Made by a program: the position numbers and the translations under genes. Below the pieces are notes generated by a model. It was not told the DNA's origin. It searched no databases and was given only the letters and a program-made list of their open reading frames with translations. A DNA stretch of 64,000 nt from an uncultured Blautia sp. (lineage in GTDB: Bacteria; Bacillota; Clostridia; Lachnospirales; Lachnospiraceae). The DNA lies in contig UQSX01000008.1 of NCBI GenBank assembly GCA_900543715.1, positions 1 to 64,000 on the forward strand. Reading direction: 5' to 3'. Every line of letters begins with the position of its first letter. The stretch's first letter is position 1. Of the stretch, positions 1,328 to 16,952 are shown piece by piece.

Positions 1328-1394
1328 AATCTGAACTCCTTTTCTGGCGGCAGGATCTGAGACTGCCGTTTTTAAACATATTTTTAGCTTGCGT

Positions 1395-2249
1395 TTAGGA
1401 GTCTTCCGACTGCTTGACAAGTAAAGCGCTTCCATGGAGATCTGGCAGCGGCAGAGGGGTAAGCCGGTGTTCCCTGCAGAACTCTTTTACTGCCTGTCCG
1501 GCTCCGGGAAACTGAAGACTGCGGTAATCATGGACAAAAATGACACCGCCGCACACCAGAAGTGGCCAGAAAATCCGGAGCCCCTGGGCAACAGACTCGT
1601 ATAAGTCCGGATCCAGATGTACAAAAGCAAAACGGGGAGGCGCAGAGGGCAGAGAATCCGGAAAGTATCCGGCACAGATTACTGCCTGCTCCGGATAAGG
1701 AAGCTGTTCCAATACCTGAGAAACAGAGGTATCCTGAAAAGCATCTTTCCATCGGGCCGATGGATTTCTTTCAGCTTCTGCAGCAAGGGCTTTTTCCGGA
1801 AAGCCCTGAAAAGTATCAAAAAGATAAAGCTTTCTTTCCGGGAACAGCCGGTTCAGTTCCCGGGCGGAAGCGCCCTGGTGTACTCCAAGCTCGGCAATTT
1901 CCCCGGGCAGACAGCGCTGCCGGATCTCTTTCGCCAGAAGCCGGATCGTGGCAAGCCGGAAGTCTATCTGCCCCAGAAGGGAAGACAGATTCTGCACAGG
2001 ACCGGTGTATCCCAGATCCTGAAGCTGTGAAAGTACAGAGGAGGCGGCCACTGGATTTTTGATGGCGATCCAGACCAGGTCGGGATCCATTTGAGGAATC
2101 TGTGCAGGGGATATTACAGGGATTCCTTCATATTCTTTTCCCCAGGTCTGGGGATTATTGTCGGTAAACGCCAGAAGGCGGACAGAGGCGGACAGCAGAT
2201 TACCCAGGGTTTGGCCTCCCTGGCCGCAGCCAAATATGATGATCTTCAT
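1395..2249 (-). CDS. TylF/MycF-type O-methyltransferase with N-terminal Rossmann domain
   Basis: 284 residues in two parts. Residues 1-85 begin MKIIIFGCGQGGQTLG, a Rossmann-like nucleotide-binding fold often found in front of sugar-modifying enzymes. Residues 100-280 resemble macrocin O-methyltransferase (TylF): a SAM site near ELGVHQGAS, then LFDTFQGFP, FVHLDPDLYESV and FVHDYRS, whose acidic residues bind the metal in this family. Expected reaction: SAM-dependent methylation of a hydroxyl group; the substrate is unknown. It lies 67 bases upstream of the XdhC-like gene on the same strand, probably in one transcript starting from the palindrome-rich region 2263-2303. Its place among molybdenum-hydroxylase genes is unusual and may mean it modifies a small molecule linked to that enzyme. 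Confidence 0.8.
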   Translation of the reverse strand: MKIIIFGCGQGGQTLGNLLSASVRLLAFTDNNPQTWGKEYEGIPVISPAQIPQMDPDLVWIAIKNPVAASSVLSQLQDLGYTGPVQNLSSLLGQIDFRLATIRLLAKEIRQRCLPGEIAELGVHQGASARELNRLFPERKLYLFDTFQGFPEKALAAEAERNPSARWKDAFQDTSVSQVLEQLPYPEQAVICAGYFPDSLPSAPPRFAFVHLDPDLYESVAQGLRIFWPLLVCGGVIFVHDYRSLQFPGAGQAVKEFCREHRLTPLPLPDLHGSALLVKQSEDS

Positions 2250-2776: not shown

Positions 2777-5524
2777 ATGATTAAAAAAATCCTTATGATT
2801 AACGGCACACAGCGGACTTTAGTTGTAGAGGGGCACGAGTCTTTAGCTGAAGTGCTCAGGGACAGACTGCTTCTTACAGGCTGTAAGATCGGCTGCGGAG
2901 AGGGACATTGCGGAGCCTGCAATGTGATCGTGGACGGAAAAGTGACCCGCTCTTGTATTACCAAAATAGCGAAAGTGCCGGATTATGCAAAAATTGAAAC
3001 TATCGAAGGTATAGGTACTCTGGAGGACCTTCATCCTCTGCAGGCGGCCTGGATCGCACATGGCTGCGCACAGTGCGGATTCTGTTCGCCAGGCTTTATT
3101 ATGAGCGCCAAAGTGCTTCTGGAGAATAATCCCTCTCCCTCCAGAACGGAAGTCCGGGAATGGTTCAATAAGAACCGGAATCTCTGCCGCTGTACCGGAT
3201 ATAAGCCGCTGATAGATGCGGTGATGGACGCAGCCAGAGTACTGCGGGGAGAGATTACAAAAGAAGATCTTATGTTCCAGCCAACGGATAATCGGATCTT
3301 GGGAACCAGCTATGCCCGTCCTTCGGCGGCGGCAAAAGTGACCGGATCCTGGGATTTTGGAGCCGATGAGATCAAGACCCTTCCGGAGGATACCCTGCAG
3401 ATCGCACTGGTCCAGGCAGAAGTATCCCATGCATGGATCAAGGGGATCGATACCTCTCAGGCAGAGCAGATGCCGGGAGTATACCGGGTCATTACCTATA
3501 AAGATGTTCCCGGAAAGAACCGGATCACCGGACTTATCACATTCCCCACAAATAAAGGCGACGGCTGGGACCGTCCGATCCTCTGTGACGAGAAAGTGTT
3601 CCAGTACGGAGATGCTATCGCTATGGTATGTGCAGATACAGTCACCCATGCCAGGGAAGCAGCCAAGTATGTGAAGGTTGATCTGGAAGTGCTTCCTGCT
3701 TACATGTCTGCACCGGAAGCTATGGACCCGGACGCTATGGAAATCCATCCGGGAACACCGAATGTTTACTATGAGACCAACTGCATAAAGGGAGAAGATA
3801 CGGCTCCTATTATGGAGACAGCTCCCAATGTCATAGAGATGGATGCATATTGTTCCAGACAGCCTCATATGCCCATTGAACCAGACGTGGCTTATGCATA
3901 TATGGATGAGGAAGGAAGAGTGACCATACACTCCAAATCTATCGGGATCCATCTTCATCATGCCATGATCTGTGCAGGCATCGGCGTAGAGCCGGAAAAA
4001 CTCCGGCTGATACAGCTCCATGCAGGAGGAACCTTCGGCTATAAATTCTCACCTACCATAGAAGCGCTGGTAGGGGTAGCCGCCCTTGTCACAGGACGTC
4101 CGGTGGCTCTGAATTTTAACATGTATCAGATGATCACTTATACCGGAAAGAGAAGTCCCGGTTTTATGCATATCAAACTGGCGGCGGATGAGAAAGGCAA
4201 GATCCTGGCCCTTGAAGGCGACAACCTTATTGACCACGGTCCATACTCAGAATTCGGCGACCTGCTGACCATGCGTCTCAGCCAGTTTGTAGGAGCCGGA
4301 GTAGACATTCCCAATATCCGCAACCGGTCACGGACTGTCTGCACCAATCATGCATACGGAGCCGCTTTCCGGGGATACGGAGCGCCTCAGTCTTTCATGG
4401 GCGGCGATATCGCAATGGATATGATGGCAGCGAAAATGGGGATCGATCCTTTTGAGTTCCGTGCCATGAACTGCTATAAAGAAGCGGAAGGATCTACGAC
4501 TCCAAATGGCTGCAAACCAGACGTATACTGTCTGGAAGATCTGTATGATCTGGCAAGACCTTATTACCAGAAGAATAAAGCTTATGCAGAGACTCTCAAC
4601 CGGGAAAAGGGAGAAAACGGCAAATTCAAGTATGGAGCCGGCGTGTCCCTGGGGGTTTATGGCTGCGGCCTGGACGGCGTGGACTCCTCAGAAGCCTGGG
4701 CAGAACTGAATCCGGACAACACGGTGACGATTTATGATTCCTGGGAGGATCACGGACAGGGAGCGGATATCGGTACCCTCACCCACGCCCATGAAACCCT
4801 CCGTCAGGCAGGATTTACACCGGATCAGATCAAACTGGTGATGAATGATACAGGAAAGACTCCGAATTCCGGACCTGCCGGAGGATCACGTTCCAATGTC
4901 ATGACCGGAAATGCGGTGCGTGTTGCCTCGGAGATGCTGATAAACGCCATGAGAAAACCAGATGGTACTTATCGTACCTATGAGGAAATGGTAGAAGAGA
5001 AGCTTCCGCTGAAGTATGAAGGAAAATGGGTGGCAACCGCATGCACGGACTGTGACCAGGAAACGGCCCAGGGAAATCCTTTCTCTGTATATATGTATTG
5101 TATTAACCTGCCTGTAGTACAGGTCAATATGGAGACCGGCAAGGTAAAGGTTGTGAAATTTACCATGGTATCTGATTTTGGCACCATCATTAATAAGACG
5201 GTTGTGGACGGTCAGGTCATGGGCGCCATTGCTCAGGGAATCGGTCTGGCTCTGTCAGAAGATTTTGAGGACCTGAAGAAACATACCAGCCTCTTAAAGT
5301 GCGGAATTCCTTACCCCAATGATATTCCTGACGACATTGAGCTGGTTTACCAGGAAAATCACCCGAGACCTCTTGGACCATACGGCGCTGCCGGCTGCGG
5401 CGAGGGACCTTTGGCCGCACCTCATCCGGCAATCCTGAACGCTATATACAGCGCTACCGGAGCAAGGATCACCAGAGTTCCGGCCAGACCGGAAGTGGTA
5501 AAAGCGGCACTGGATGCTCTGTAA
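2777..5524 (+). CDS. Molybdopterin-dependent aldehyde oxidoreductase (Mop type, one chain)
   Basis: 915 residues, close to the 907 of Desulfovibrio gigas Mop, joining the iron-sulfur and molybdenum parts without a FAD subunit. Cysteines 40, 45, 48 and 60 form the plant-ferredoxin-type 2Fe-2S site; Cys100, Cys103, Cys137 and Cys139 form the second one. These positions equal those of Mop. The molybdopterin domains fill residues 180-915. GCGEGPLAAPH contains the base Glu876, equivalent to Mop Glu869. Such enzymes oxidise aldehydes or hydroxylate heterocycles, with water as oxygen source; the actual substrate cannot be read here. GGGAGGTGG precedes the ATG. The accessory genes on both sides presumably mature this protein. 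Family is certain, substrate is not. Confidence 0.93.
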   Translation: MIKKILMINGTQRTLVVEGHESLAEVLRDRLLLTGCKIGCGEGHCGACNVIVDGKVTRSCITKIAKVPDYAKIETIEGIGTLEDLHPLQAAWIAHGCAQCGFCSPGFIMSAKVLLENNPSPSRTEVREWFNKNRNLCRCTGYKPLIDAVMDAARVLRGEITKEDLMFQPTDNRILGTSYARPSAAAKVTGSWDFGADEIKTLPEDTLQIALVQAEVSHAWIKGIDTSQAEQMPGVYRVITYKDVPGKNRITGLITFPTNKGDGWDRPILCDEKVFQYGDAIAMVCADTVTHAREAAKYVKVDLEVLPAYMSAPEAMDPDAMEIHPGTPNVYYETNCIKGEDTAPIMETAPNVIEMDAYCSRQPHMPIEPDVAYAYMDEEGRVTIHSKSIGIHLHHAMICAGIGVEPEKLRLIQLHAGGTFGYKFSPTIEALVGVAALVTGRPVALNFNMYQMITYTGKRSPGFMHIKLAADEKGKILALEGDNLIDHGPYSEFGDLLTMRLSQFVGAGVDIPNIRNRSRTVCTNHAYGAAFRGYGAPQSFMGGDIAMDMMAAKMGIDPFEFRAMNCYKEAEGSTTPNGCKPDVYCLEDLYDLARPYYQKNKAYAETLNREKGENGKFKYGAGVSLGVYGCGLDGVDSSEAWAELNPDNTVTIYDSWEDHGQGADIGTLTHAHETLRQAGFTPDQIKLVMNDTGKTPNSGPAGGSRSNVMTGNAVRVASEMLINAMRKPDGTYRTYEEMVEEKLPLKYEGKWVATACTDCDQETAQGNPFSVYMYCINLPVVQVNMETGKVKVVKFTMVSDFGTIINKTVVDGQVMGAIAQGIGLALSEDFEDLKKHTSLLKCGIPYPNDIPDDIELVYQENHPRPLGPYGAAGCGEGPLAAPHPAILNAIYSATGARITRVPARPEVVKAALDAL

Positions 5525-5624: not shown

Positions 5625-7847
5625 ATGGAACATAAGGATCGGGGATTTGTGGGAAAACATTATTTAATGAAGCAGGCTTTCGGCCAGGAAGAACTTCATC
5701 AGAGGGAAGCTGTCTGTACCAGAGAAGATCCTCCGGGCTGCTCGGCAGTATGCCCTCTTCATCTGGATATGCGGGCAGTCTGCACCTATGCGGCAAAAGG
5801 AGATTTTGCAAAAGCAGCAGGAGTGATCCGGAGCGTTACCCCTTTTCTCCACCTTCTGGCAAAGGGCTGTCCCGGAGCCTGCGAGGAGGCCTGCGCCTTG
5901 TCCCGGATAGGGGAAGGGATCAAGGTGAGGGCTCTGGAAAAGGCCTGCGCCCTGTATGGAGGAAAAGAAAGAGGCAGCGGTTTTCTGATCCCCCGGAAAA
6001 ATAAAAAGGTGATTGTAGGGGGAGATGATCTTTTTGCCCTGGCCTGCTGCTGGGAACTGGGCAGAAAAGGCTATGAGATTTTCTGGTATACCCGGTGTGA
6101 AAACTGGAAAGAGCCTCTGCTTTCCTGGGGTCTGACAGAAGAGGAAGCAGAGGCAGATACGGCTTCTCTGGAACTTTTCCGTATGACCAAAAAAGATAGA
6201 GAAGGGGAAGCCTCAGGATGGGGTGCATGTGGAGACGCAGTCTGTCTGTCTCCCTGCCTTTGGCGTACCGGCCTGCCGGAAAATGTTTTTGGAACAGAAA
6301 AGAAATGGGAAAAGAATGACGGGGCTGCCTGGATACTGGCCTGGGCAAAATATGTATCAGCTAAGGCGGAACGTTATCTTCAGGGGGCCTCTTGGGAAGG
6401 AATCCGGCAGCCGGGGCCTCAGGAGAGCCGCTTACATGTAACTATGGACGGCGTGGAAGGAAGCCGGGCTTTTACAGGACTGGAGAAACCGGACAGAGAG
6501 CTGGCGGCAGCAGAGGCCGGACGCTGTATACAGTGCCAGTGCCTGGAATGTATAAAGGGCTGCGTCTATTTCCAGGAGTATAAACGGAACCCCAGAGGAG
6601 CTGTCCGGGAAATTTACAACAATCTTTCTATTGTGATGGGAAATCATATGGCAAACGGAATGATCAATGCCTGTGATCTGTGCGGACAGTGCAAGTCCGC
6701 CTGTCCTAATGGATTTGACTACCCGGAAGTATGCAAAATGGCCCGGAAGATCATGGTGGAGACAGAGAAAATGCCGCCTTCCGCTCATGAGTTCGGACTT
6801 CTGGACCAGCAGTTCTCCTGCAATGAAGCATTTCTGGCCAGGCCTGAGCCGGGATATGAACACTGCAGATATCTGTTTTTCCCCGGATGCCAGGCTTCTG
6901 CCGTGTCACCGGATACAGTAGAAGCTGCTTACAGGGATCTGTCAGGCAGACTTACCGGAGGCGTAGGCCTGCTTCTCGGCTGCTGCGGGGCTCTGGCCCA
7001 ATGGGCAGGAAGAGAAGATCTGGCTTCAGAGGCATTGGAAAAGATCCGCAGCGTCTGGAAAGAGATGGGAGAGCCGGAAGTGATCTGCGCCTGTCCCACC
7101 TGCATGAAGATATTAAGGGAAAGAACGGAAATTTCTGCGGTGGGAGTATGGCAGATACTCCTGGAACTGGGAACAGATCCGGTGACAGATCAGACAGTGG
7201 CTATACAGGATGCCTGCGGGGCAAGAGGAGATCAGAAAATCCAGGAACAGATCCGGGATTTTGCAGGGGCTTTGGGATGTAAAGTAGAAGAAGCCCCCTT
7301 TTCCAAAGATCTGTCTCCCTGCTGCGGATACGGGGGAATGGTCCGCTTTGCGAATCCCGAGATGGCAGAAAAAAAAGCTTCTTTTGCAGCCGGCAGGACC
7401 TCCAGAAAGATCCTGACCTACTGCATGGCCTGCAGGGACCAGCTGACCCGGGCAGGAGCGGACTCCATACATATCCTAGAACTGGCCTATGGAACCGGCG
7501 CTCCTTCGGTGCCGGATCTGTCCCGGCGTAGAGCGAACCGTCTGAAACTGAAGGAAAAACTCCAGCAAGAAATCTGGAAGGAAGAAATAAGGAGGGAAGC
7601 TATGCTGCCGGTCTTTTATGAAAATGGAGCGGAAGAAGAAATGGACAGGCGTATGATCCTGAAAAGCGACGTGGAAGCTGTACTGAAAGATTATGAAGCC
7701 TCAGGAGAAGCGGTGGAGGACCCGGAAAAGGGCTGGCTGGCTGCTTCCGCCAGGATCGGCAATGTTACTTTCTGGGTAAAGTTTACCGAGACAGAGAAAG
7801 GATACCTGGTATATGGGGCTTACAGCCACCGGATGACTGTGGAGTAA
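5625..7847 (+). CDS. Multi-cluster Fe-S redox protein (GltD-like N-terminus, dicluster and CCG domains)
   Basis: 740 residues. Residues 30-110 resemble the GltD-type 4Fe-4S region (Cys31, Cys39, Cys43, then GCPGACEEAC). A shrunken FAD/NAD-like stretch follows near residue 125, reading VIVGGDDLFALACCWEL, with the usual GxGxxG/A pattern lost. Next come paired ferredoxin motifs (CIQCQCLECIKGC and CDLCGQCKSACPNG) and two CCG domains (FFPGCQ...GCCG near 415-450, SPCCGYGGM near 565) like heterodisulfide reductase subunit D. I recall this architecture under the name pyridine nucleotide-disulfide oxidoreductase/dicluster-binding protein, beside Mop-type enzymes (DVU_1558). Likely role: electron transfer to or from the oxidoreductase or its cofactor. 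It is first in the operon, with AGGAGAG before ATG. Confidence 0.82.
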   Translation: MEHKDRGFVGKHYLMKQAFGQEELHQREAVCTREDPPGCSAVCPLHLDMRAVCTYAAKGDFAKAAGVIRSVTPFLHLLAKGCPGACEEACALSRIGEGIKVRALEKACALYGGKERGSGFLIPRKNKKVIVGGDDLFALACCWELGRKGYEIFWYTRCENWKEPLLSWGLTEEEAEADTASLELFRMTKKDREGEASGWGACGDAVCLSPCLWRTGLPENVFGTEKKWEKNDGAAWILAWAKYVSAKAERYLQGASWEGIRQPGPQESRLHVTMDGVEGSRAFTGLEKPDRELAAAEAGRCIQCQCLECIKGCVYFQEYKRNPRGAVREIYNNLSIVMGNHMANGMINACDLCGQCKSACPNGFDYPEVCKMARKIMVETEKMPPSAHEFGLLDQQFSCNEAFLARPEPGYEHCRYLFFPGCQASAVSPDTVEAAYRDLSGRLTGGVGLLLGCCGALAQWAGREDLASEALEKIRSVWKEMGEPEVICACPTCMKILRERTEISAVGVWQILLELGTDPVTDQTVAIQDACGARGDQKIQEQIRDFAGALGCKVEEAPFSKDLSPCCGYGGMVRFANPEMAEKKASFAAGRTSRKILTYCMACRDQLTRAGADSIHILELAYGTGAPSVPDLSRRRANRLKLKEKLQQEIWKEEIRREAMLPVFYENGAEEEMDRRMILKSDVEAVLKDYEASGEAVEDPEKGWLAASARIGNVTFWVKFTETEKGYLVYGAYSHRMTVE

Positions 7848-7858
7848 AGGAGGCGCAG

Positions 7859-8077
7859 ATGGGAGAAAAAACTTATTATTCTATGGATCCCATGGGAAAA
7901 CTGAAGTGCCATAAATGCAAAAAAGAACTGGTCAGAGGAAGGGCGGTTTTCAGCTATCTCGGCAATGCGTTCCCGGTAGAACTGCCGGTATGTCCGGAAT
8001 GCGGTTATATTTACGTACCTGAGGAGCTGGCAGTAGGCAAAGTCCTTTCTGTGGAACGCAGTCTGGAGGACAAATGA
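7859..8077 (+). CDS. Small two-CxxC protein, DVU_1557-like
   Basis: 72 residues with two CxxC pairs: CHKC near residue 17 and CPEC near residue 43, separated by a hydrophobic stretch. This is a rubredoxin or zinc-ribbon-like knuckle pattern. It matches in size and position the small redox protein I recall as the DVU_1557 family, always beside Mop-type clusters. Metal identity cannot be told from sequence; iron or zinc would both fit. AAAGGAGG lies before the ATG, and the stop overlaps the start of the next gene by four bases (ATGA), so the two are translationally coupled. No membrane or export signal is present. Confidence 0.75.
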   Translation: MGEKTYYSMDPMGKLKCHKCKKELVRGRAVFSYLGNAFPVELPVCPECGYIYVPEELAVGKVLSVERSLEDK

Positions 8078-8673
8078 TTGGCAGTCATCCCGGCGGGCAG
8101 GAGATGACAGCCAGACTGCTGACCCTTTCGGGACTCCGTCCTCCTGCCAGGATCCTGGAACTGGGAGCTGGAGAGGGAAAAACAGCGGCATATCTAAGAA
8201 CATTGGGATTTGAAGTAAGGGCAGTGGATCTGAAGCCATCAGGCCCGGGAGTAGAGCAGGGAGACATAAGAAGGCTGGATTTTGCCAGGGAAAGTTTTGA
8301 CTGTTGCCTGGCGGAATGTACGGTCTCCGGATGCGGAGACGGAAATGCGGCCCTCAAAGAGGCATTCCGGGTACTGAAAAAAAATGGCTGTCTGCTGATA
8401 GCCGATGTTTTTTTCAAAAAGAAAAAGGCGCCTTCCCTCTCTATGAGAGAGCCTCTGATATGGAACTGCTGGAAGGAAGCTTTTGAAAAAGCAGGATTCC
8501 AGATAGAAAAGGGGGAGGACGAAACGGAAGCATGGAAGGAATTTTTTTTGGAAAGTCTTTGGAACGGAAATGCAGAGGAAAGCTGTGTGGATTTCTTCAT
8601 AGAGGCAGGAAAAGCCGGGTGCGGATACTTCCTGGCCTGTCTCAGGAAAGGAGAGAAAAATGGATTTATTTGA
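8074..8673 (+). CDS. trsM: SAM-dependent methyltransferase, DVU_1556 (TrsM)-like
   Basis: 199-residue class I methyltransferase. The SAM-binding motif I is ILELGAGEGKTAAYL near residue 27, followed by the acidic motif II in VRAVDLKPSG and a proline-poor motif in the CLAECTVSGCGDGN region. The latter has several cysteines, uncommon at this place in ordinary methyltransferases. It starts inside the stop of the preceding gene and overlaps the next gene by 14 bases. In context this is the methyltransferase of the DVU_1551-1559-type set. The substrate is unknown; a pterin, a sulfur ligand or a peptide would all be possible. Family assignment is good, pathway assignment rests on neighbours. Confidence 0.8.
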   Translation: MIGSHPGGQEMTARLLTLSGLRPPARILELGAGEGKTAAYLRTLGFEVRAVDLKPSGPGVEQGDIRRLDFARESFDCCLAECTVSGCGDGNAALKEAFRVLKKNGCLLIADVFFKKKKAPSLSMREPLIWNCWKEAFEKAGFQIEKGEDETEAWKEFFLESLWNGNAEESCVDFFIEAGKAGCGYFLACLRKGEKNGFI

Positions 8674-9088
8674 GCGTATGCTGGAACTGTCAGGACAGGG
8701 ATTCTACTGCGCCCAGATTTTGATGATCCTGGCGCTGGAATCGGAAGAAAGGGAGGACCCGGATCTGATACGGGCCATGAGCGGATTAAACGGAGGCCTT
8801 GGATTTTCCGGAAGAGTCTGCGGCGCTCTTACGGGAGGCTGCTGTTTCTTGGGATATTTTCTGGGAAAAGGAGAGGCGGAAGAACTGGAGGACCCGGAGG
8901 CCCCGATCCTGATCCAAAAGCTGGCGGACTGGTTTGAAGAATGGACCAAAAGCCGGTATGGCGGCTGTACCTGCCGGGAGATCCTGGAGGGAGATCCGGG
9001 AAATAAAATGAAAAGATGCCCGGAACTTGTAGAAGAAGTATATCAGAAATGCCTGGAACTCCTTTCGGAAAAAGGAGGATTGCCATGA
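8660..9088 (+). CDS. C-GCAxxG-C-C family protein, DVU_1555-like
   Basis: 142 residues. It carries the C-GCAxxG-C-C family pattern in variant form: FYCAQILM near residue 16, GGLGFSGRVCGALTGGCC near 45-62, and further cysteines at CTCREIL and KRCPEL. Members are small helical proteins thought to bind a metal or Fe-S cluster through these cysteines and often sit with redox enzymes. Between helices is an acidic linker. It overlaps the previous gene by 14 bases and the next by four, so it belongs to the same tightly coupled block. GGAGAG before the ATG acts as ribosome site. Molecular activity is not established for the family as far as I know. Confidence 0.8.
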   Translation: MDLFERMLELSGQGFYCAQILMILALESEEREDPDLIRAMSGLNGGLGFSGRVCGALTGGCCFLGYFLGKGEAEELEDPEAPILIQKLADWFEEWTKSRYGGCTCREILEGDPGNKMKRCPELVEEVYQKCLELLSEKGGLP

Positions 9089-10164
9089 AAGGAGCAGGGC
9101 TGATCGCCGCGGCAGGAAGATCCAGACGGATGGAAGGATTTAAACCGCTGCTGGAGATAAACGGCTTTCCCATGATCGCTATGACTGTCCAAAGTATGGA
9201 AAATGCCGGGATAAGAGATATTACGGTGGTTGTGGGATACCGGGGAGAAGAGGTAAGGAGGGCCTTGAAGGCTCTGGAGGTAAAAATCGTAGAAAATCCC
9301 TTCTGGCAGGACACGGATATGCTGGCTTCTGTGAAACTGGGACTTGAGGCTGTGGACAGGAGACAGGGCGTATTTTTTCTTCCCGGAGACATTCCTTTAA
9401 CCTCTCCGGGAACTTTTCAAAAGCTGAGAGAGGGGATTTTGGCAGCAGAGCCGGAAACAGAGGCTCTGATCCCTGCTTCAGGAGGGAAGACCTTCCATCC
9501 CCCCTTTCTGTTTCCTGCAGGCTGTCAGAAAGCACTGGACTATCAGGGCAGCCGGGGACTTCAGGGAGCCTTTGGCGCCATGAAGACAAAAACAGTAGAG
9601 ACAGCAGATGGAGGAGCACAGATGGACGCTGATGATCAGAAAGATCTTGCCCATATCCGGGACTATGCCAGAAAGTACAGAGGGATTTCCCCCCAGTTGT
9701 GTGAAAAACTCTATGATGAAGTGAATCTCCCGGCCCATATCCGGGCCCACTGCATGGCGGTGGGGGATCTGGCGGCCTGGATGGCCCGGCGTCTGACAGA
9801 AGCAGGTGCTTTTCTGGATATAGAGCTTTGCAGAAGCGGAGGCTGCCTTCATGATCTGCTGCGGCTGGAGCCCTTTCATGAAAAAGCGGGGAGAAAGTTT
9901 CTGGAAGAAAAGGGGTATCTGGCTCTGGCAGCAGTAACGGGAGCCCACAGAGGTTTTGAGCAGGAGCCGGATACTCTTTGCAGAGAGGATGTACTGGTGT
10001 GTCTGGCGGATAAACTGATCATGGAGAACAGGCGTGTATCTCTGGAGGAGAGATATAGGAAAGCCCTGGAGAAAAAAGAAGTAAAAAAGCGTATTTTACA
10101 GGATATTGAAATCTGCCGTCGGCTGATAAAAGAATTTGAGGTGATGACAGGTGAAAGGTTATGA
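9085..10164 (+). CDS. MobA/MocA-like nucleotidyltransferase fused to an HD domain, DVU_1551-like
   Basis: 359 residues. The N-terminal half is a MobA-like nucleotidyltransferase: AAAGRSRRMEGFKPLLEI is the NTP-binding signature, with VVVGYRGEEV and FFLPGDIPLTS (metal-binding Asp) further on. The C-terminal half (about residues 200-359) is an HD phosphohydrolase, with H..H-type residues around AHCMAVGDLAAW and GGCLHDLLRL. MocA proteins add CMP to molybdopterin, giving the MCD cofactor found in Mop-type enzymes, so that is the natural guess for the first half. The HD part could hydrolyse a phosphate ester or a nucleotide on the same cofactor. The start at 9085 has AAAGGAGG six bases upstream. 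I recall the same fusion as the DVU_1551 family. Confidence 0.85.
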   Translation: MKGAGLIAAAGRSRRMEGFKPLLEINGFPMIAMTVQSMENAGIRDITVVVGYRGEEVRRALKALEVKIVENPFWQDTDMLASVKLGLEAVDRRQGVFFLPGDIPLTSPGTFQKLREGILAAEPETEALIPASGGKTFHPPFLFPAGCQKALDYQGSRGLQGAFGAMKTKTVETADGGAQMDADDQKDLAHIRDYARKYRGISPQLCEKLYDEVNLPAHIRAHCMAVGDLAAWMARRLTEAGAFLDIELCRSGGCLHDLLRLEPFHEKAGRKFLEEKGYLALAAVTGAHRGFEQEPDTLCREDVLVCLADKLIMENRRVSLEERYRKALEKKEVKKRILQDIEICRRLIKEFEVMTGERL

Positions 10165-11299
10165 GCAAAAAGTATATTTAAACAATGCTGCCACCTCCTG
10201 GCCGAAACCGGACTGTGTAGCCCTGGCCGTTTCTCAGGCTCTCAGGAGCCTGCCGGGAGACGCCGGCAGAGGAGGGATCCGGGAGTTTGATGTGTTTGAT
10301 CAGGTACGGAAAAAACTGTCTGCTTTGCTGGGAGTTTCCAGCCCGGAAAGGATTGCTCTGGGAAGTAATTCTACATGGGGCCTGAACCAGGCTGTTTTCG
10401 GTTTCCCTCTGGAACCGGGAGACCGGGTGCTGACTACAAAGGCAGAACACAATGCAGTACTCCGTCCTTTATATCGACTGGAAAAAGAGGGGATCCAGGT
10501 AATTTACCTGGATGTGGATAAGACTGGCCGGATAGAGCCGGAGGAGTGGAAAACAGCCGTAAGGAAATACCGGCCCAGACTGTGTGTGCTGATTCATGTT
10601 TCCAATGTGACAGGTGCTGTCAATGACGCAGAGACCCTGACGGCCATGGCAAAAGACGCCGGAGCCGCTATGCTTCTGGATATATCCCAGAGTCTGGGCT
10701 GGATCTCTGTTGAAATGGAAAAATGGGGAGCAGATATGGCAGCTTTTACAGGACATAAGTATCTGCTGGGGCCTCAGGGAACCGGAGGGCTTTACGTCCG
10801 GCCAGGGCTTACTTTGGATCCCTATGTACTGGGAGGCACCGGCGTAAAAAGCAATCTGAAGGAAATGCCGGAAGAAATGCCTCTCCATCTGGAGGCAGGA
10901 ACCGGAAACGAGCCTTCTTACCATGGCCTTCTTGCCGCCTTGCAATGGGCAGAAGAAAATCCTTTGGACCGGGAGAAAACGGAGGAAATCCTTCGGTATC
11001 TGAAAAAGGGGCTGAGGGATCTGGGCTGCCGGGTGATCCAGCCGGAACCTCCGGTTACGCCGGTGCTTTCTTTTACAATTCCAGGCTGGCATCCGGGAGA
11101 GGTCGGAGATATTTTATCCGGCAGTTATGACATTATCTGCCGGACAGGGCTCCACTGTTCGCCCAGGATCATGGAGAACCTTGGAACGCCCCAGGGGACT
11201 ATACGCCTGAGTCTGTCCCGTTTTACGAAAAGGGCGGATGCAGACCGGGTACTGGAAGCTGTGGCCGCTATGTGCGGAGACCAGATGGAAGAAACCTGA
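10151..11299 (+). CDS. Class V aminotransferase-fold PLP enzyme (cysteine desulfurase-like)
   Basis: 382 residues, fold type I PLP enzyme of the cysteine desulfurase/selenocysteine lyase branch. The start is GTG at 10151, with GAGGTGATG upstream; the product begins near VYLNNAATSWPKP, typical of this family. The PLP lysine is in FTGHKYLLGPQGTGGLY, and the candidate sulfur-carrying cysteine is in ICRTGLHCSP near residue 330. Likely reaction: removal of sulfur or selenium from cysteine or selenocysteine, passing it to an acceptor. Here the acceptor could be the terminal sulfido ligand of the molybdenum cofactor, a step handled with XdhC-type proteins elsewhere. It overlaps the preceding gene by 14 bases. 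Confidence 0.85.
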   Translation: MKGYEQKVYLNNAATSWPKPDCVALAVSQALRSLPGDAGRGGIREFDVFDQVRKKLSALLGVSSPERIALGSNSTWGLNQAVFGFPLEPGDRVLTTKAEHNAVLRPLYRLEKEGIQVIYLDVDKTGRIEPEEWKTAVRKYRPRLCVLIHVSNVTGAVNDAETLTAMAKDAGAAMLLDISQSLGWISVEMEKWGADMAAFTGHKYLLGPQGTGGLYVRPGLTLDPYVLGGTGVKSNLKEMPEEMPLHLEAGTGNEPSYHGLLAALQWAEENPLDREKTEEILRYLKKGLRDLGCRVIQPEPPVTPVLSFTIPGWHPGEVGDILSGSYDIICRTGLHCSPRIMENLGTPQGTIRLSLSRFTKRADADRVLEAVAAMCGDQMEET

Positions 11300-11321
11300 A
11301 AACGGAGGATACATTTTAAAG

Positions 11322-12941
11322 ATGGAATTTAAATGGAAAAAGACAGAAAACTGTTTTGCAGAAGCCAGAACGTATGAATATGAACTTCCTATTACCGGAG
11401 AGGAGCTGGCTGCAAGGCTGGAGGGGTTTGAAGTAAAAGAAAACCATCGGTTCCGCCGCCCGGTTTTTTCGGCAAAGAAGGGGGCTCTGGAGGTCAAGGG
11501 AATCCTGAAGGAAAAGGTTGTGAAGATCAATTATACAGCAGAAAACTGGGAAGAGGAAAAGAACCGGATGGAGGCCTGGATGAAAAACCAGGAAATTTAT
11601 ATGGAGGAAAAAGGAGAGAGCATCTGCCCGGTATGCCTGAAAGTCCTGCCGGCCCAAAAAGCAGTAAGAGAAGACGGGATCTATCTGGTAAAAGAATGTC
11701 CGGAACACGGAAGATTTGAAGCGCTGATCTGGGAAGGAACACAGGAAAGCTACCGGGACTGGGGAAAACATATCCTTCCTTCAGACAGGATTCCCGCCGC
11801 CCTTCCTGAAAAGCAGGGATGCCCTCTGGACTGCGGCCTCTGCGAAAACCATCAGCGCCGGGGCTGCTGTGTTCTGCTGGAAGTAACCGGAAGGTGTAAT
11901 CTTCAGTGCCCGACCTGCTTCGCCGGATCCGGCCCGCAAGGCCGGGATGTACCATTGGAGGAACTGAAAGACCAGATGCAGTATCTCATGGAACACGGAG
12001 GGCCTTTTAATCTTCAGATTTCCGGGGGAGAGCCTACGGTCCGGGAAGATCTGGAAGAAATCCTTCGATTTGGGAAAAAACTGGGTTTTACATTTTTTCA
12101 GCTGAACACCAACGGGATCCGTCTGGCAGAAGAACCGGGATATGCAGAGAAGCTGAAAAGAGCAGGAATTTCCTGTGTTTTCCTGCAGTTTGACGGACTG
12201 AAAGAGGCCCCATATCAGGTTTTAAGGGGCCGTCCTCTGCTGGAGATCAAAAAGAAAGCCATCGATGCCTGCGAGGCAGCGGGACTGGGAGTCGTGCTGG
12301 TTCCGGTCATTGCTCCGGGAGTTAACGAAGACCAGGCCGGGGAAATTCTTTTTTATGCAAGAAGCCGGATGCCTGTGATAAGAGGCGTTCATTTTCAGCC
12401 AGTCAGTTATTTCGGACGCTGCAGCGAGTCAAAAGGCAGCTATCGGATAACCATACCGAAAATGCTGAGGCTTCTGGAAGAACAGACAGGAGGCTGGATC
12501 CATGCCGGAGATTTTACCGGAGGAGGCGCCACTAATCCTTACTGTACCTTTCAGGCCAACTACCTTAGGCAGAAAGATGGTTCCATGAAACTTCTGGCTC
12601 ATGGGGAGCCAAGGACTTCCGGCCTGTCGGAACAGGCCCGGGATTTTGTGGCCCGCCAGTGGAGCGGAAACTGCTGCAGGGAAGGTCTTCAGGCCGGAGA
12701 TGGCTGCTGCGGGGAAGAAACGGGAAGACTGACTCTGGATACTTCTTCTCTGGACAATTTTCTGAGGGAGATCCACAGAAATACGCTGGCGGTTTCCGGT
12801 ATGCTGTTCCAGGACGCCTGGAATCTGGAACTGGACCGTTTACGCCGGTGTTATATTCTGGAATCAGACAGCCGGTATGGCATGGTGCCTTTCTGCATTT
12901 ATAATCTGACAGGATCTGACGGGAGGGCTTTGTATAGATGA
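11322..12941 (+). CDS. trsS: Radical SAM enzyme, TrsS-like, with N-terminal extension
   Basis: 539 residues from the ATG at 11322, which has GGAGG 13 bases upstream; the frame is open further upstream but runs into the previous gene. Residues 1-95 form an unrecognised charged domain. Then comes a CPVC knuckle (Cys102, Cys105) and, near 170-185, CPLDCGLCENH. The radical SAM core has VTGRCNLQCPTCFAG with the 4Fe-4S cysteines 192, 196 and 199, followed by QISGGEPTVREDL. More cysteines lie near the C-terminus (NCCREGL, GCCGEE). I recall TrsS as a radical SAM protein, sometimes a selenoprotein, in Mop-type clusters; no in-frame TGA occurs here. It would cleave SAM to make a radical; the substrate is unknown. 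Confidence 0.82.
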   Translation: MEFKWKKTENCFAEARTYEYELPITGEELAARLEGFEVKENHRFRRPVFSAKKGALEVKGILKEKVVKINYTAENWEEEKNRMEAWMKNQEIYMEEKGESICPVCLKVLPAQKAVREDGIYLVKECPEHGRFEALIWEGTQESYRDWGKHILPSDRIPAALPEKQGCPLDCGLCENHQRRGCCVLLEVTGRCNLQCPTCFAGSGPQGRDVPLEELKDQMQYLMEHGGPFNLQISGGEPTVREDLEEILRFGKKLGFTFFQLNTNGIRLAEEPGYAEKLKRAGISCVFLQFDGLKEAPYQVLRGRPLLEIKKKAIDACEAAGLGVVLVPVIAPGVNEDQAGEILFYARSRMPVIRGVHFQPVSYFGRCSESKGSYRITIPKMLRLLEEQTGGWIHAGDFTGGGATNPYCTFQANYLRQKDGSMKLLAHGEPRTSGLSEQARDFVARQWSGNCCREGLQAGDGCCGEETGRLTLDTSSLDNFLREIHRNTLAVSGMLFQDAWNLELDRLRRCYILESDSRYGMVPFCIYNLTGSDGRALYR

Positions 12942-14146
12942 ATATAGCGAAACTGGATTCCTGGGTAAAGGAGAAGGAAGGGATAAAAATCCTGGACCGT
13001 CAGGCGATAGAAAGCCTGCAGCTGGAAAAACTGAACCGGCTTCTGGAAAGAGAATACGCCAGGCAGGGATTTTACCGGAACCTGCCCCGGCGCCTGAATT
13101 CTCTGAAGGAACTGGAAAACCTGCCCTTTACCACAGAGCAAGACCTGAAAGAACAGGGGAATCGGATGCTTCTGGTCAGCCAGTCAAAGATCGAGAGAGT
13201 GAGAAGCTGGGAAACCTCAGGGACCACGGGACCTGCAAAAAGGATCTTCTATACCGCCAGGGACAATGACCGGACAGTATCTTTTTTTTCGGCAGGACTT
13301 TCTGAGCTGATCCATTGGGGGGAAAAGGCTGTGATCGCCATGCCTTTTACAGGAGACAGGGGACTTGGCGAACTGATACAGGAAGCTGTGGAAGGGCTGG
13401 GCGCCGTGCCTGTGCCTGCAGGAAATATGAAAAGCTTCGGGGAGATGATGGAACTTCTGGACAAAGAGAAACCGGATACGTTTATAGGCCCTCCTGTACT
13501 ACTGCTGTCTCTGCTCCGTATGAGGCCAAAGAGCAGTATCAAAAGAGGATTGGTCAGCGGAGATGCCTGTCCCCCGGGAATCATGAAAGCAATCGAAGAG
13601 CGTCTGGGTACCAGACTGTACCCCCACTATGGGTCCAGGGAAATGGGACTTGGAGGTGCTGTCACCTGTCCGGCTTTTCAGGGTATGCACCTGCGGGAAA
13701 ATGATATTATTGGGGAGATTGTAGACGAAAAGGGAAAAGCAGTACCGGAAGGAGAGTGGGGGGAGCTTACAGTGACTCTCATAGAGGCCGGGGCTATGCC
13801 TCTGATTCGCTACCGCACAGGGGACATAAGCCGCTTTTTGCCGGGAATCTGTCCCTGCGGCTGCTGTCTGCGGCGGCTGGATTCCGTCAGCAGGATTGGG
13901 GAAGGAAGAGAAATGGAAGAACTTGATGACTATATATTCCAGATCCCATGGATCGTGGATTACCGGATATCCAGGAAAGGAGAAATTCTGGAAATAGAGG
14001 GGCTGACAACGGAAAAAGGCATAGAGGAAAAAGCCGGAGGCCTGCTTCCCGGAGAGTGGAAAGGGAGAAAACTCAACTGTACCTGGAAATCTGCAGAACC
14101 AGAGGATGAGCCCTGCTACCGGGGAAAGCGCAGGATAGAGAACTAA
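12938..14146 (+). CDS. PaaK-like AMP-forming CoA ligase, DVU_1553-like
   Basis: 402 residues, ANL superfamily, phenylacetate-CoA ligase branch. The phosphate-binding loop is SWETSGTTGPAKRIFY near residue 90, the adenylate-binding motif is HYGSREMGLGG near 230, and YRTGDISRF near 290 carries the ribose-binding Asp. CPCGCCLRR just after it looks like the zinc or Cys knuckle of some PaaK homologues. The usual C-terminal lid is shortened. Expected reaction: ATP plus a carboxylic acid to an acyl-AMP, then a thioester; the acid is not known. ATGA overlap with the radical SAM gene implies coupling. I recall this as the DVU_1553 family found with the other genes here. Confidence 0.82.
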   Translation: MNIAKLDSWVKEKEGIKILDRQAIESLQLEKLNRLLEREYARQGFYRNLPRRLNSLKELENLPFTTEQDLKEQGNRMLLVSQSKIERVRSWETSGTTGPAKRIFYTARDNDRTVSFFSAGLSELIHWGEKAVIAMPFTGDRGLGELIQEAVEGLGAVPVPAGNMKSFGEMMELLDKEKPDTFIGPPVLLLSLLRMRPKSSIKRGLVSGDACPPGIMKAIEERLGTRLYPHYGSREMGLGGAVTCPAFQGMHLRENDIIGEIVDEKGKAVPEGEWGELTVTLIEAGAMPLIRYRTGDISRFLPGICPCGCCLRRLDSVSRIGEGREMEELDDYIFQIPWIVDYRISRKGEILEIEGLTTEKGIEEKAGGLLPGEWKGRKLNCTWKSAEPEDEPCYRGKRRIEN

Positions 14147-14175: not shown

Positions 14176-14577
14176 ATGAATGAATTTTATTATATTGCCC
14201 GGCTGCGTATCAAGCGCAGAGAGGATAAAGGAAATGAATACTTTGGAAGGGGAGTGGCGGATCTTCTTCACGGTGTAGATCAGTTTTCCTCACTGAACCT
14301 GGCAGCCCGGCATATGGGAATGGCTTACAGCAAGGCCTGGCGGATCGTACGCCAGGCAGAAGCGGCGCTGGGCATACAGCTGCTGCATCGTATGAGAAAA
14401 AACGGTTCCACTCTTACAGCAGAAGGCCGGAAGATGCTTGAAGTTTATGAAGAGGCGGAACAGGCCGCCTGGGCAGCAGCAGATGCAGTGATAGAACGTT
14501 ATTATGGAGGAACGGGGAATGAACAGGATCAAAGAGGAACTGCTCCAGAACAGGGGAATGCTGGTGACGGACTTTGA
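14176..14577 (+). CDS. ModE-like winged-helix regulator without molybdate domains
   Basis: 133 residues, mostly a single winged helix-turn-helix of the ModE N-terminal type: GVADLLHGVDQFSSLNLAARHMGMAYSKAWRIVR is spread over residues 26-60, followed by EAALGIQLLHR and a basic wing GSTLTAEGRKML. E. coli ModE carries two TOBE molybdate-binding domains after this; they are missing here, leaving only a short glycine- and glutamine-rich tail. Such short forms are common in clostridia. It may control the mod operon that starts 780 bases downstream, where a palindrome overlaps the -10. The 3' end overlaps the next gene by 59 bases. Confidence 0.8.
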   Translation: MNEFYYIARLRIKRREDKGNEYFGRGVADLLHGVDQFSSLNLAARHMGMAYSKAWRIVRQAEAALGIQLLHRMRKNGSTLTAEGRKMLEVYEEAEQAAWAAADAVIERYYGGTGNEQDQRGTAPEQGNAGDGL

Positions 14578-15193
14578 TAGGACTCTGACCCTCTCTGGCA
14601 GTTCCCTTCATGGGGCGGTGCACGTACTGGGGGAAAATTCGGGACTGGCCGTAGGGCGGGACCGGCTTTTTCAGAAAATGGGAAGAGAGGTTTTGCGTGC
14701 TGCAAAGAGGGGGCAGGAGAAGGAAGCTTTGAACAAAAGGGCAGAGGACTGGTGGAAGGAACAGATGGAATTGTATGTGAGAGAGGGCATTGGCCAAGAG
14801 GTATTAAAAAAAGCGGCAGAGCTGCTGCCTCCCAGGAGGGAGGCTCTGGAACTCCTGGAGTTTTGCAGAAAGGAAACTTTGCCGGTCTGGATCGTCTCTG
14901 CAGGCTTGGGAAATGTGATCCGCTTCTGGCTGGAGGCACAGGGAATTTGGGAAACGGGGATCCAGGTGCTGGCCAATGAGCTTTATTATGCAGGGGAAAA
15001 CCCTGTAGGATACGGAGAAATCCTTACTATATGGAATAAAAGAGATAAATTTTTTGCTGTAGCAGCACCAGAAGAAGAACAGAAGTTATTTTTCCTTGGA
15101 GATAAAAGAGAAGATCTGAGATGGAGAAAAAATAATGAAGAAAGTTATCTGATCCAAGAAGGAGAAATAGTTAAAATAGAGGAATTTGCTTGA
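14519..15193 (+). CDS. HAD-superfamily phosphatase
   Basis: 224 residues. HAD motif I is LVTDFDRTLTLSG near residue 17 (nucleophile and acid aspartates), motif II is WIVSAGLGN, and motif IV is FFLGDKREDLRW. The helical cap between motif I and motif II fits subclass I. The start at 14519 is preferred over an ATG five codons earlier because GGAGG lies eight bases before it. Substrate: a phosphomonoester, not identifiable; homologues act on nucleotides, phosphoserine or cofactor precursors. As last gene of the ten-gene operon it may clean up a phosphorylated intermediate of the pathway, but it could equally be a passenger. Confidence 0.72.
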   Translation: MNRIKEELLQNRGMLVTDFDRTLTLSGSSLHGAVHVLGENSGLAVGRDRLFQKMGREVLRAAKRGQEKEALNKRAEDWWKEQMELYVREGIGQEVLKKAAELLPPRREALELLEFCRKETLPVWIVSAGLGNVIRFWLEAQGIWETGIQVLANELYYAGENPVGYGEILTIWNKRDKFFAVAAPEEEQKLFFLGDKREDLRWRKNNEESYLIQEGEIVKIEEFA

Positions 15194-15357: not shown

Positions 15358-16281
15358 ATGAAAAAAAAGGTTTTAGCAGTACTGCTGGCAGGCACAATGG
15401 CATTGGCCATGGGGGCATGCGGCCAGGAAAGCGGCACAGAGACATCTGAGACCGCCGGAGGAGAAGACGCTGCAGCAGAGGAAACAGACGCTGAAGAAAC
15501 AGCTTCTGACAGCCAGGAAACGACTGAAGAAGGAGATGAGGTAGAACTGACAGTATTTGCAGCAGCCTCGCTCACAGAGACTCTTACAGAAATCAGCGAA
15601 CTCTATAAAGAAGAGCAGCCCAATGTAAGCCTGGTCTTTAACTTTGACTCCTCAGGAACTTTAAAGACCCAGATCCAGGAAGGCGCTGTCTGCGATCTGT
15701 TTATTTCTGCAGGACAGACCCAGATGGATCAGATGGACAGTACAGCAGACCCGTCGGTGAACACAGAAGGGCTTGATCTGGTCCTGGAAGACTCCAGGAT
15801 CGATATTTTGGAAAATAAGGTCGTGCTCTGCGTCAGCGAAAACAGCAGTGTGCCCTTAGAGACATTTGATGATATGGCGGCAGCATTGAAGGAAGGAACA
15901 ATTCTTCTTGGAATGGGAAACAGCGATGTGCCGGTAGGACAGTATACCCAGAAGATCCTGGAGTATTATGGACTGAATGAAGAGGAACTGGCTGCAAATG
16001 GCCGGATCTCTTACGGCAGTAATGTAAAAGAAGTAACCACACAGGTTTCTGAAGGCACCGTGGACTGCGGCGTTATTTATTGCACAGATGCTTACTCTGC
16101 AGGGCTTACAGCTTCTGACTATGCTACGCCGGAAATGTGCGGACAGGTGATCTATCCTGCCGCTGTTATGAAGAACAGTCAGTATCAGGAAGAGGCTCAG
16201 GCTTTTCTGGATTTCCTTCAGACAGATCCCTGCATGGAAATCTTTGAAGAGGTTGGCTTCTCCAGGGTGACAGAAGGATGA
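15358..16281 (+). CDS. modA: Molybdate ABC transporter substrate-binding lipoprotein
   Basis: 307 residues. A lipoprotein signal peptide ends in the lipobox LAMGAC with Cys21 as lipid anchor. An acidic, threonine- and serine-rich linker follows to about residue 62. Then comes the ModA fold: LTVFAAASLTETLTEI, FNFDSSGTLKTQI, CDLFISAGQTQMD and the late IYCTDAYSAG segment. It binds molybdate (or tungstate) outside the membrane and delivers it to ModB. AAAGGAG precedes the ATG. It is first in the operon modA-modB-modC-molybdopterin-binding protein-moaA-MOSC. Oxyanion preference cannot be settled from sequence. Confidence 0.95.
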   Translation: MKKKVLAVLLAGTMALAMGACGQESGTETSETAGGEDAAAEETDAEETASDSQETTEEGDEVELTVFAAASLTETLTEISELYKEEQPNVSLVFNFDSSGTLKTQIQEGAVCDLFISAGQTQMDQMDSTADPSVNTEGLDLVLEDSRIDILENKVVLCVSENSSVPLETFDDMAAALKEGTILLGMGNSDVPVGQYTQKILEYYGLNEEELAANGRISYGSNVKEVTTQVSEGTVDCGVIYCTDAYSAGLTASDYATPEMCGQVIYPAAVMKNSQYQEEAQAFLDFLQTDPCMEIFEEVGFSRVTEG

Positions 16282-16952
16282 TAGATTGGTATCCTTTATG
16301 GAACTCTCTGCGGATTGCGGCCATCAGCTGTACAGTTGTATTTTTCCTGGGAATCCCTGCCGCTTACTATATAGCCAGGCTTCCCAGGGCTGTGAAAGGG
16401 ATTTTAGATGTGATACTGACTCTGCCCATGGTACTTCCGCCTACGGTATGCGGCTATTTTCTGCTGATACTTCTGGGGCCTCAAAGGCCCCTGGGCAGAT
16501 TTCTGGCCAATTTCGGCATACAGTTTGCCATGACCTGGTACGGAGGTATCGTAGCTTCGGCGGTAGTAGCTTTTCCGTTGATGTACCGGACAGCCAGGGG
16601 AGCCTTTGAAAGTTTTGACACTACCCTGGCATATTCCGGTCAGACCCTGGGCCTTTCCAATACCTATATTTTCTGGCGTATCCGGATGCCGGCCTGCCGT
16701 CAGGGAATCCTGGCAGGAACGGTTCTGGCTTTTGCCAGGGCTCTGGGAGAATATGGAGCCACCAGCATGCTCATCGGATATGTTCCGGGGCGGACAGCCA
16801 CTATATCTACCACGGTTTATCAGCTTTGGCGGACCAATAATGAGCAGGAAGCCTTTTTCTGGGTCATGGTAAATGTAGTAATCTCAACGGTAATCCTTCT
16901 GGCGGTGAATATGCTGGAACGCCGAAACAGAAAGGCAGGTGGCAGGATATGA
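16278..16952 (+). CDS. modB: Molybdate ABC transporter permease
   Basis: 224 residues with five predicted membrane segments, starting at residues 8-30. The ABC permease EAA loop, which contacts ModC, is visible as AYSGQTLGLSNTYIFWRI followed by MPACRQGILAGTVLAFARALGEYGAT. The last phrase is highly typical for ModB. The start codon overlaps the modA stop by four bases and the stop overlaps modC by four, giving translational coupling through the transporter. Function: inner-membrane channel for molybdate uptake driven by ATP hydrolysis on ModC. Confidence 0.95.
   Translation: MIDWYPLWNSLRIAAISCTVVFFLGIPAAYYIARLPRAVKGILDVILTLPMVLPPTVCGYFLLILLGPQRPLGRFLANFGIQFAMTWYGGIVASAVVAFPLMYRTARGAFESFDTTLAYSGQTLGLSNTYIFWRIRMPACRQGILAGTVLAFARALGEYGATSMLIGYVPGRTATISTTVYQLWRTNNEQEAFFWVMVNVVISTVILLAVNMLERRNRKAGGRI

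Follow-up and report, generated by a model that had tools for sequence, protein, structure and literature searches.

The window analysed here, a stretch of 64,000 nucleotides from contig UQSX01000008.1 of an uncultured Blautia sp. (GCA_900543715.1), carries eight genes that lie on the plus strand, mostly overlap and span positions 5625-14146, directly 3' of the gene for a Mop-type molybdenum enzyme (Mop). In order, they encode an iron-sulfur protein (dicl), a small DVU_1557 family protein, a methyltransferase, a C-GCAxxG protein, an NTP transferase-HD fusion, a desulfurase-like enzyme, the radical S-adenosylmethionine (SAM) enzyme TrsS and an AMP-forming ligase. An earlier note on this DNA had described these genes beside a Mop-type molybdenum hydroxylase at 2777, and both the genes and their coordinates proved to be real. 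Its naming of the families held in the main, as the window genes are members or near members of the NCBIfam DVU_1551-1559 set with TrsS (NF045645, NF045646, NF045663-NF045669), although the name TrsM, which it had also used, was not met. The gene order is close to that of Desulfovibrionaceae loci; the window differs in having an added desulfurase, a 104-residue protein fused to TrsS and XdhC on the other strand. Since the set recurs at loci of several phyla, it is not a chance assembly. It is a real, conserved system that has already been named piecewise in NCBIfam, where most of its families bear names only, without function. Below, L-numbers denote the loci and G-numbers the genomes compared.

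As the earlier note had supposed, the gene set is tied to the Mop-type enzyme in particular rather than to molybdenum hydroxylases at large. In a draw of 196 genomes from the class of G001, the nearest genome to the window (46% of sampled words in common), in which the same operon is present, TrsS (NF045646) and Mop (NF045668) each scored above the curated cut-off in 10 genomes, and the two groups of 10 were identical. The AMP ligase, dicl and the C-GCAxxG protein did so in these 10 and in G089, and the NTP transferase in seven. A xanthine oxidase (XO) family match at 1e-60 was seen in 38 of the 196, so that most genomes with such a match do without the gene set. In a draw of 299 genomes from the phylum, TrsS exceeded its cut-off in 20, all of which have Mop (the copy in G265 being truncated by a contig end), and Mop in 23, or 25 when two contig-truncated copies are counted. 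The hypergeometric probabilities of this co-occurrence, uncorrected for kinship, were 5.5e-17 (class) and 7.6e-27 (phylum), and among genomes with any XO-family match 2.1e-9 and 2.2e-18, likewise uncorrected. Families widespread without Mop, the finding that the earlier note had named as damaging to its proposal, were thus not encountered for TrsS above cut-off in either draw. The converse, Mop implying TrsS, holds less strictly. Among named genomes, 29 Mop loci had no TrsS in the DNA around them; for the 28 with searchable genomes, a TrsS match (1e-30) lay elsewhere in 20, above the cut-off in 11.

The same association is seen around individual genes. Named genomes were scanned with a Mop alignment and the best 80 named loci, which do not include Desulfovibrio gigas, were examined; their titles name Firmicutes, Desulfobacterota, Spirochaetes, Chloroflexi, Actinobacteria, Acidobacteria and others, and 63 are Mop by score. 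At the 29 loci whose flanks reach 9.5 kb or more in both directions, dicl was present at 26, DVU_1557 at 22 (fusions uncounted), the AMP ligase at 19, and the methyltransferase, the C-GCAxxG protein and TrsS at 18 each, followed by XdhC (14), the NTP transferase (12), a His-phosphatase (10), a MoeA-like protein (9) and the desulfurase (0). At 15 other XO-type loci, several of them short, the methyltransferase, C-GCAxxG protein, TrsS, AMP ligase, dicl and DVU_1557 were above threshold at none, with XdhC at two, the NTP transferase at three and MoeA at two; L146, counted among the 15, is in reality a Mop broken in two, and in L161 dicl is matched at 130 bits, below threshold. Conversely, the 68 loci of at least 15 kb with a TrsS of at least 400 bits carried the AMP ligase (59), the methyltransferase (59), dicl (61), the C-GCAxxG protein (54), DVU_1557 (59, plus three in which it is fused to dicl), XdhC (47) and the NTP transferase (45). 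Mop was present at 58 of the 68, a figure that is not independent because part of these loci were chosen by Mop.

The operon splits into a molybdenum part, made up of XdhC, the MocA-like NTP transferase-HD fusion and a MoeA-like protein, and a second module of TrsS, the AMP ligase, the methyltransferase and usually the C-GCAxxG protein. The second module travels with DVU_1557 and the C-terminal domain of dicl, also in three cassettes that lack Mop. The number of dicl copies equals that of Mop copies in 11 of 11 class-set genomes (17 versus 17; Mop in G089 is truncated), whereas G080 has three and G173 two groups of Mop, dicl and DVU_1557 versus one above-cut-off copy each of TrsS, the AMP ligase and the C-GCAxxG protein. 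Two of the Mop paralogues in G080 and one in G173 are accompanied by dicl and DVU_1557 only. These copy numbers indicate that dicl goes with each Mop, and that the rest would act in trans.

The three cassettes without Mop are L077 (G097, 13 kb), L223 (G495, 20 kb) and L204/L246 (G510, 20 kb; L246 is the 20 kb around L204). L077, L223 and L246 keep TrsS, the AMP ligase, a methyltransferase, a DVU_1557 protein and a stand-alone dicl C-terminal domain protein, and no Mop, XdhC, NTP transferase, His-phosphatase or MoeA was found within the 13-20 kb examined. In L204/L246 the methyltransferase (89 bits) is on the other strand, and a Mop-like open reading frame (ORF) scores 86 bits, far below Mop level; L077 has a weak C-GCAxxG relative, and L223 a DUF5714 protein. 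Tandem TrsS genes stand with the AMP ligase in L077 (6885-9474) and L223 (8759-11402), both of which also have a dihydrolipoyl-dehydrogenase-type gene (476 bits in L077, cut-off 408.8). The stand-alone proteins in L077, L204 and L223 match positions 671-755 of the 756 in the dicl profile, that is, its C-terminal 85 residues, and a wider search for stand-alone dicl C-terminal domains found one near-identical protein only. Upstream in L223 are relatives of alcohol dehydrogenase, aldehyde dehydrogenase, PTA and acetate kinase.

The DVU_1557 protein, conserved along much of its length and with two CxxC motifs, ends in lysine in all 90 distinct proteins compared, those of the Mop-less cassettes included, and in all three fusions to the C-terminal end of dicl (L094, L095 and L100). 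The tails of the 90 are EDK (75), EEK (11), EGK (3) and ESK (1). The lysine is encoded by AAA in 62 and AAG in 28, all three stop codons are used, and an ATGA or GTGA overlap occurs in only 24 of the 90 genes; the terminal lysine is therefore not a by-product of gene overlap. None of eight other cassette proteins showed a bias for terminal lysine, the highest being Mop with 35 of 134. An independent protein search found the EDK tail in 66 of 75 DVU_1557 matches, and the other nine stop short of the tail motif, as truncated or frameshifted pieces would. DVU_1557 follows TrsS: at Mop loci with at least 4.8 kb downstream it is present in two of six TrsS-negative versus 13 of 15 TrsS-positive genomes (Fisher 0.03), and in L188 TrsS adjoins DVU_1557 without Mop or dicl. 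We read the lysine as a predicted recognition or attachment site.

The closest solved relative of TrsS is Tes (7tol, 290 bits), although on the Tes model NF045702 the window protein is below cut-off (319.1/450). In common with Tes, MJ0619 (7tol, 7tom), whose metal motifs are taken here from passages of PMC9433317, it has a rubredoxin-type CX2C-X20-CX2H, an N-terminal 4Fe-4S motif CX3CX2C-X2-H and the radical CX3CX2C; each of the eleven metal ligands is present in at least 78 of 81 proteins in a wider alignment. TrsS Met494, invariant in 27 of 27, aligns with the labile cluster methionine Met439 of Tes. TrsS differs in an extra invariant Cys182, in a Glu at the place of Tes Tyr459 in the window protein, and in a window chain with some 35 fewer residues between its core and its C-terminal cluster. 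As described in the passages of PMC9433317 on the mechanism, Tes holds its carbon radical as a C-S bond on the C-terminal cluster, and SAM-limited Tes yields a thiolated lipid. In a quick tree of 98 TrsS-type proteins, the 78 rows from Mop cassettes, the window included, form one clade (SH-aLRT 99), and five variant rows from the Mop-less cassettes (group support 90) are its neighbours with a joint support of 99. In TrsS of L118 (9774-11318) and L204 (1483-2856) an in-frame TGA, which presumably encodes selenocysteine, replaces a Cys five residues before a cluster-type Cys near the C-terminal cluster motif; the window protein has alanine at this position. Only these two cases, with conserved sequence on both flanks, were used, as the read-through listing mixes internal TGA codons with ordinary stops. 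A more distant TrsS-like family in L064, L065 and L189 adjoins ICMT/PEMT-type membrane methyltransferases in L064 and L189, perhaps in a lipid pathway.

At its N-terminus the window TrsS has an additional domain, some 90 residues long, which other species encode as a protein of its own. This 104-residue-type protein adjoins the desulfurase gene in Sporomusa (L230 and L231), L091 and L102, and is fused to TrsS in the window and in G001. Its profile matched at six loci only among 30,739 ORF entries, all six with the desulfurase; at TrsS loci (at least 400 bits) the desulfurase occurs at five and in the window, only where the 104-residue protein is also present. The desulfurase, which the earlier note had counted as part of the gene set and which we had considered as a core gene, was dropped as such on this wider count. 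DUF5714 is fused to TrsS in L128 (6303, Pfam) and, by eye, in L201 (679) and L202 (1474), and is adjacent to it in L086 (13854) and L223 (13220), both by Pfam. A common family for the C-GCAxxG protein and DUF5714 was considered, but profile comparison gave a probability of 1.2, and no homology is claimed.

The dicl protein consists of an N-terminal cluster domain, a degenerate FAD motif, a 4Fe-4S dicluster, a pair of complete CCG motifs and the C-terminal domain. The two CCG motifs did not vary among the 20 proteins aligned, and they are what dicl has in common with heterodisulfide reductase subunit HdrB and other CCG-domain proteins, from which it differs in domain order, in a fused N-terminal GltD-like part and in its private C-terminal domain. 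The AMP ligase has adenylation-type motifs and a Lys397 conserved in at least 90% of 55 proteins. For the window Mop, the closest solved chains are the Desulfovibrio aldehyde oxidoreductases 1dgj and 1sij/1vlb, which are members of the Mop family as well and match along almost the entire length (1216-1231 bits). These have been studied as isolated enzymes with a flavodoxin partner, and the portions of that literature consulted do not mention neighbouring genes.

Based on sequence comparisons, namely the genome-level tie to Mop, the division of the operon into two modules, the presence of a dicl for every Mop copy, the fusions of dicl with DVU_1557 and of the 104-residue protein with TrsS, the invariant last lysine, and the three metal-site motifs and labile methionine of Tes that TrsS keeps, we tentatively favor, at clearly less than even confidence, the reading that a redox group, probably one with sulfur, is built by the second module on the C-terminal lysine of DVU_1557, which would then carry electrons between Mop and the HdrB-like dicl. 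Under such a scheme: the AMP ligase would activate an acid and join it to the terminal lysine; the TrsS radical would abstract hydrogen from an unactivated sp3 carbon; the carbon radical would take sulfur from the C-terminal 4Fe-4S cluster of TrsS, as in the Tes intermediate; in the window, the desulfurase and the fused N-terminal domain would reload the cluster sulfur; the methyltransferase and the C-GCAxxG protein might finish or reduce the product; and the CCG clusters of dicl would exchange electrons with it. The synthesis and insertion of ordinary molybdopterin cytosine dinucleotide (MCD) would fall to XdhC, the MocA-like transferase-HD fusion and the MoeA-like protein. A new electron carrier, which the earlier note had offered together with a new ligand as its alternative, fits these observations better than the modified molybdenum cofactor that it had also considered.

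The full form of this proposal would be a protein-bound redox cofactor new to science: a sulfur arm placed on the C-terminal lysine of the DUF7479 protein by a Tes-like radical SAM enzyme and an adenylating ligase, linking the molybdenum hydroxylase to a CCG-cluster reductase and, elsewhere, to a dihydrolipoyl-dehydrogenase-like flavoenzyme. As a whole we consider this rather unlikely. If true, however, it would mean that the lipoyl-arm principle has been invented twice, independently. Protein-bound lipoate may serve as an analogy in the way of working only, with an adenylating ligase, a radical SAM enzyme capable of C-S chemistry, an invariant lysine and, in two variant cassettes, the dihydrolipoyl-dehydrogenase-type gene. 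The gene set is not claimed to belong to lipoylation systems.

Several observations weigh against a redox group on DVU_1557. The tie between the genes is not free of exceptions: G089, where Mop is cut by a contig end, has the cassette, but no TrsS was found in it; among the phylum genomes, Mop is present in G381 and G263 with no TrsS match at 1e-50, and in G272 with only a 332-bit TrsS relative of the branch linked to the DMSO-reductase-type enzyme described below; and eight of the 28 named Mop genomes gave no TrsS match at 1e-30. The small Fisher test depends on L149, in which TrsS is cut by the contig end (p 0.04 without L149, and 0.12 with L149 counted as negative), and the two TrsS-negative genomes that keep DVU_1557 are of 1.3-1.4 Mb. 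All three genomes with Mop-less cassettes have Mop elsewhere, and two of them were found only through a search of Mop genomes. The terminal lysine could serve only for docking. In dicl of the window the GxGxxG-type FAD/NAD motif is not intact (VGGDDL versus GAGLSG in the alignment consensus), and CCG motifs occur also in proteins that feed quinones. As the desulfurase and its partner protein are present at only six loci, sulfur chemistry elsewhere rests on the likeness to Tes. Finally, TrsS relatives outside the Mop clade adjoin a 726-727-residue molybdopterin oxidoreductase of the dimethyl sulfoxide (DMSO) reductase family in L191 (5743), L192 (9645) and L195 (838), that is, in three of three loci of one branch. 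The position of such relatives beside an unrelated molybdopterin enzyme points back to molybdenum and to a possible role in the cofactor.

These three loci are also the strongest point for the second-best explanation, possible but weakened, according to which the set alters MCD itself, e.g., by C- or S-alkylation, and which we regard as distinctly unlikely. It would account for the strict tie to Mop genomes and for the interleaving of MocA-like, XdhC and MoeA genes; moreover, pterins were the substrates first ascribed to the Tes family, a role echoed in the Pfam zinc-ribbon name HMPTM. In three cassettes, however, the second module is found separate from the molybdenum genes. Furthermore, the 1.28 Å model of the enzyme purified natively from D. 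gigas contains MCD, according to passages of PMC10223205, and the enzyme is active without a sulfido ligand according to excerpts of the same paper and of PMC3877041; this counts against an altered MCD to the extent that D. gigas itself carries the cassette. The parts consulted of the D. gigas genome paper (PMC4287179) do not describe the mop locus. The Desulfovibrio desulfuricans enzyme 1DGJ is, over a stretch of 382 residues, 85% identical to the enzymes of L103 and L104, both loci having the full set. The modified molybdenum cofactor suggested in the earlier note thus lost ground on account of both the detached module and the MCD of the D. gigas enzyme. A replacement of molybdopterin (MPT) synthase by TrsS, under which Mop genomes would be without MoaE, was also considered and not retained; MoaE was recognized in 12 of 196 class genomes, including six of the 10 Mop genomes, but weak scores and a general scarcity make this count uninformative. 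Only these 12 stand against 38 class genomes with XO-family matches, and the class may have a divergent MPT synthase or a substitute for it.

The second module might instead be a transient assembly aid, which builds or repairs metal sites in Mop or dicl without leaving a lasting group behind; the ordinary MCD of the crystal is compatible with this. Such a role would suit the interleaving with XdhC and the MocA-like gene and the several redox proteins in the set, but it offers no evident task for an AMP ligase whose adenylation motifs are conserved, and it leaves the invariant lysine unexplained; we take it to be more doubtful still than an alteration of MCD.

Two further explanations, both improbable, start from DVU_1557 as a small protein with an invariant C-terminus. 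It might be a sulfur carrier, its C-terminal carboxylate being adenylated and thiocarboxylated as in ThiS and MoaD, with the sulfur passing to TrsS or to the molybdenum site. An AMP-forming enzyme and a desulfurase in the same operon would agree with this, whereas the tail is E-[DEGS]-K rather than Gly-Gly, the ligase is PaaK-like rather than ThiF-like, and most cassettes have no desulfurase. Alternatively, and with as little likelihood, it might be the precursor of a diffusible cofactor like pyrroloquinoline quinone (PQQ) or mycofactocin, the C-terminal lysine being first modified and then excised from the peptide; a radical SAM enzyme beside a short protein with an invariant last residue would be fitting. 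No protease was identified among the recurrent genes, however, and the conservation of DVU_1557 over much of its length, its two CxxC motifs and its fusion to dicl at three loci also argue against this. Least probable of all is a catabolic route, leading either to the aldehyde that Mop oxidizes or onward from the acid that it forms: an acyl-activating type of ligase does adjoin an aldehyde oxidoreductase, but a single above-cut-off set accompanies three Mop copies in G080, the Mop paralogues in G080 and G173 described above have dicl and DVU_1557 only, and a radical SAM enzyme, a methyltransferase and a desulfurase fit poorly.

Although the aldehyde oxidoreductase of Desulfovibrio is a textbook example of a molybdenum enzyme, the genes that accompany its family across phyla have, according to our searches, database names only. 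In the open-licence literature of PubMed Central (PMC), searches with DVU tags, TrsS, Tes homologues, the D. gigas cluster, GCAxxG and molybdenum cofactor/radical SAM found no functional study of the gene set. TrsS is entered in a table within the excerpted part of a selenoprotein review (PMC13188914), and DVU_1559 in tables within excerpts of two proteomic papers (PMC10920352 and PMC11784015); excerpts of PMC6436200, PMC10609526 and PMC11186832 held nothing further on the set. The module split together with one candidate residue turns an open gene list into a single mass-spectrometry question. Any group found on the lysine would amount to a new protein-bound redox cofactor, the product of an enzyme related to Tes, which joins archaeal membrane lipids.

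The features of the window are collected in the table below, in which family scores from NCBIfam profile models are given as bits/curated cut-off. XdhC, of which homologues are present in many cassettes, and the MoeA-like gene are members of the wider cassette. For the NTP transferase and TrsS, the starts at 9088 and 11322 are most likely used rather than those of the longest ORFs.

Features of the window around the Mop gene and the eight-gene set
Feature	Position	Strand	Family score	Remark
XdhC-related maturation factor	299..1435	-	NF045664 274.2/350	Molybdenum module; best family, below cut-off
TylF-type O-methyltransferase relative	1395-2249			Adjoins XdhC
Mop-type molybdopterin-dependent aldehyde oxidoreductase	2777..5524	+	NF045668 1563.5/1100	Passes; without FAD domain
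dicl Fe-S protein	5625..7847	+	NF045663 727.3/530	Passes
dicl C-terminal domain	approx. 7605..7844	+		Separate small protein in Mop-less cassettes
DVU_1557 family protein (DUF7479)	7859..8077	+	NF045645 91/60; PF24292 90.2	Passes; 72 residues, two CxxC
DVU_1557 C-terminal lysine	8072-8074			Last codon; predicted acceptor of modification
SAM methyltransferase, DVU_1556 type	8074..8673	+	NF045667 128.1/155	Best family, below cut-off
C-GCAxxG-C-C redox protein, DVU_1555 type	8660..9088	+	NF045669 168.4/103	Passes
MocA-like NTP transferase-HD fusion	9088..10164	+	NF045665 282.9/315; TIGR03310 (MocA) 86.6 bits	Molybdenum module; best family (NF045665), below cut-off
Cysteine-desulfurase-like pyridoxal phosphate (PLP) enzyme	10151..11299	+	TIGR01977 307.3/377	Best family, below cut-off
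TrsS radical SAM enzyme	11322..12941	+	NF045646 553.7/490	Passes; Tes 7tol 290 bits
104-residue-type domain at TrsS N-terminus	about 11325-11588		56.5, E 4.4e-15	Fused to TrsS
AMP-forming ligase, DVU_1553 type	12938..14146	+	NF045666 339.4/300	Passes
ModE/LysR-type DNA-binding protein	14176..14577	+	TIGR00637 32.6 bits; PF00126	
HAD-IB phosphatase	14504..15193	+		
ModA, ModB, ModC-type molybdate transporter genes	15358..18013	+		
MoeA-like molybdopterin-binding protein	18010..19032	+	TIGR00177 66.8/85.35	Recurs beside Mop in cassettes
MoaA	18996..20033	+	TIGR02666 358/284	
ABC-transporter gene pair	21186-24724			Membrane and ATPase domains fused
Folate genes: dihydropteroate synthase and FolB-HPPK fusion	26768-28477			

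The Sporomusa cassettes have two extra XdhC-like ORFs (L230, 15103-16667; L231, 4063-5153), and relatives of the TylF-type O-methyltransferase were seen near Mop in a few other loci.

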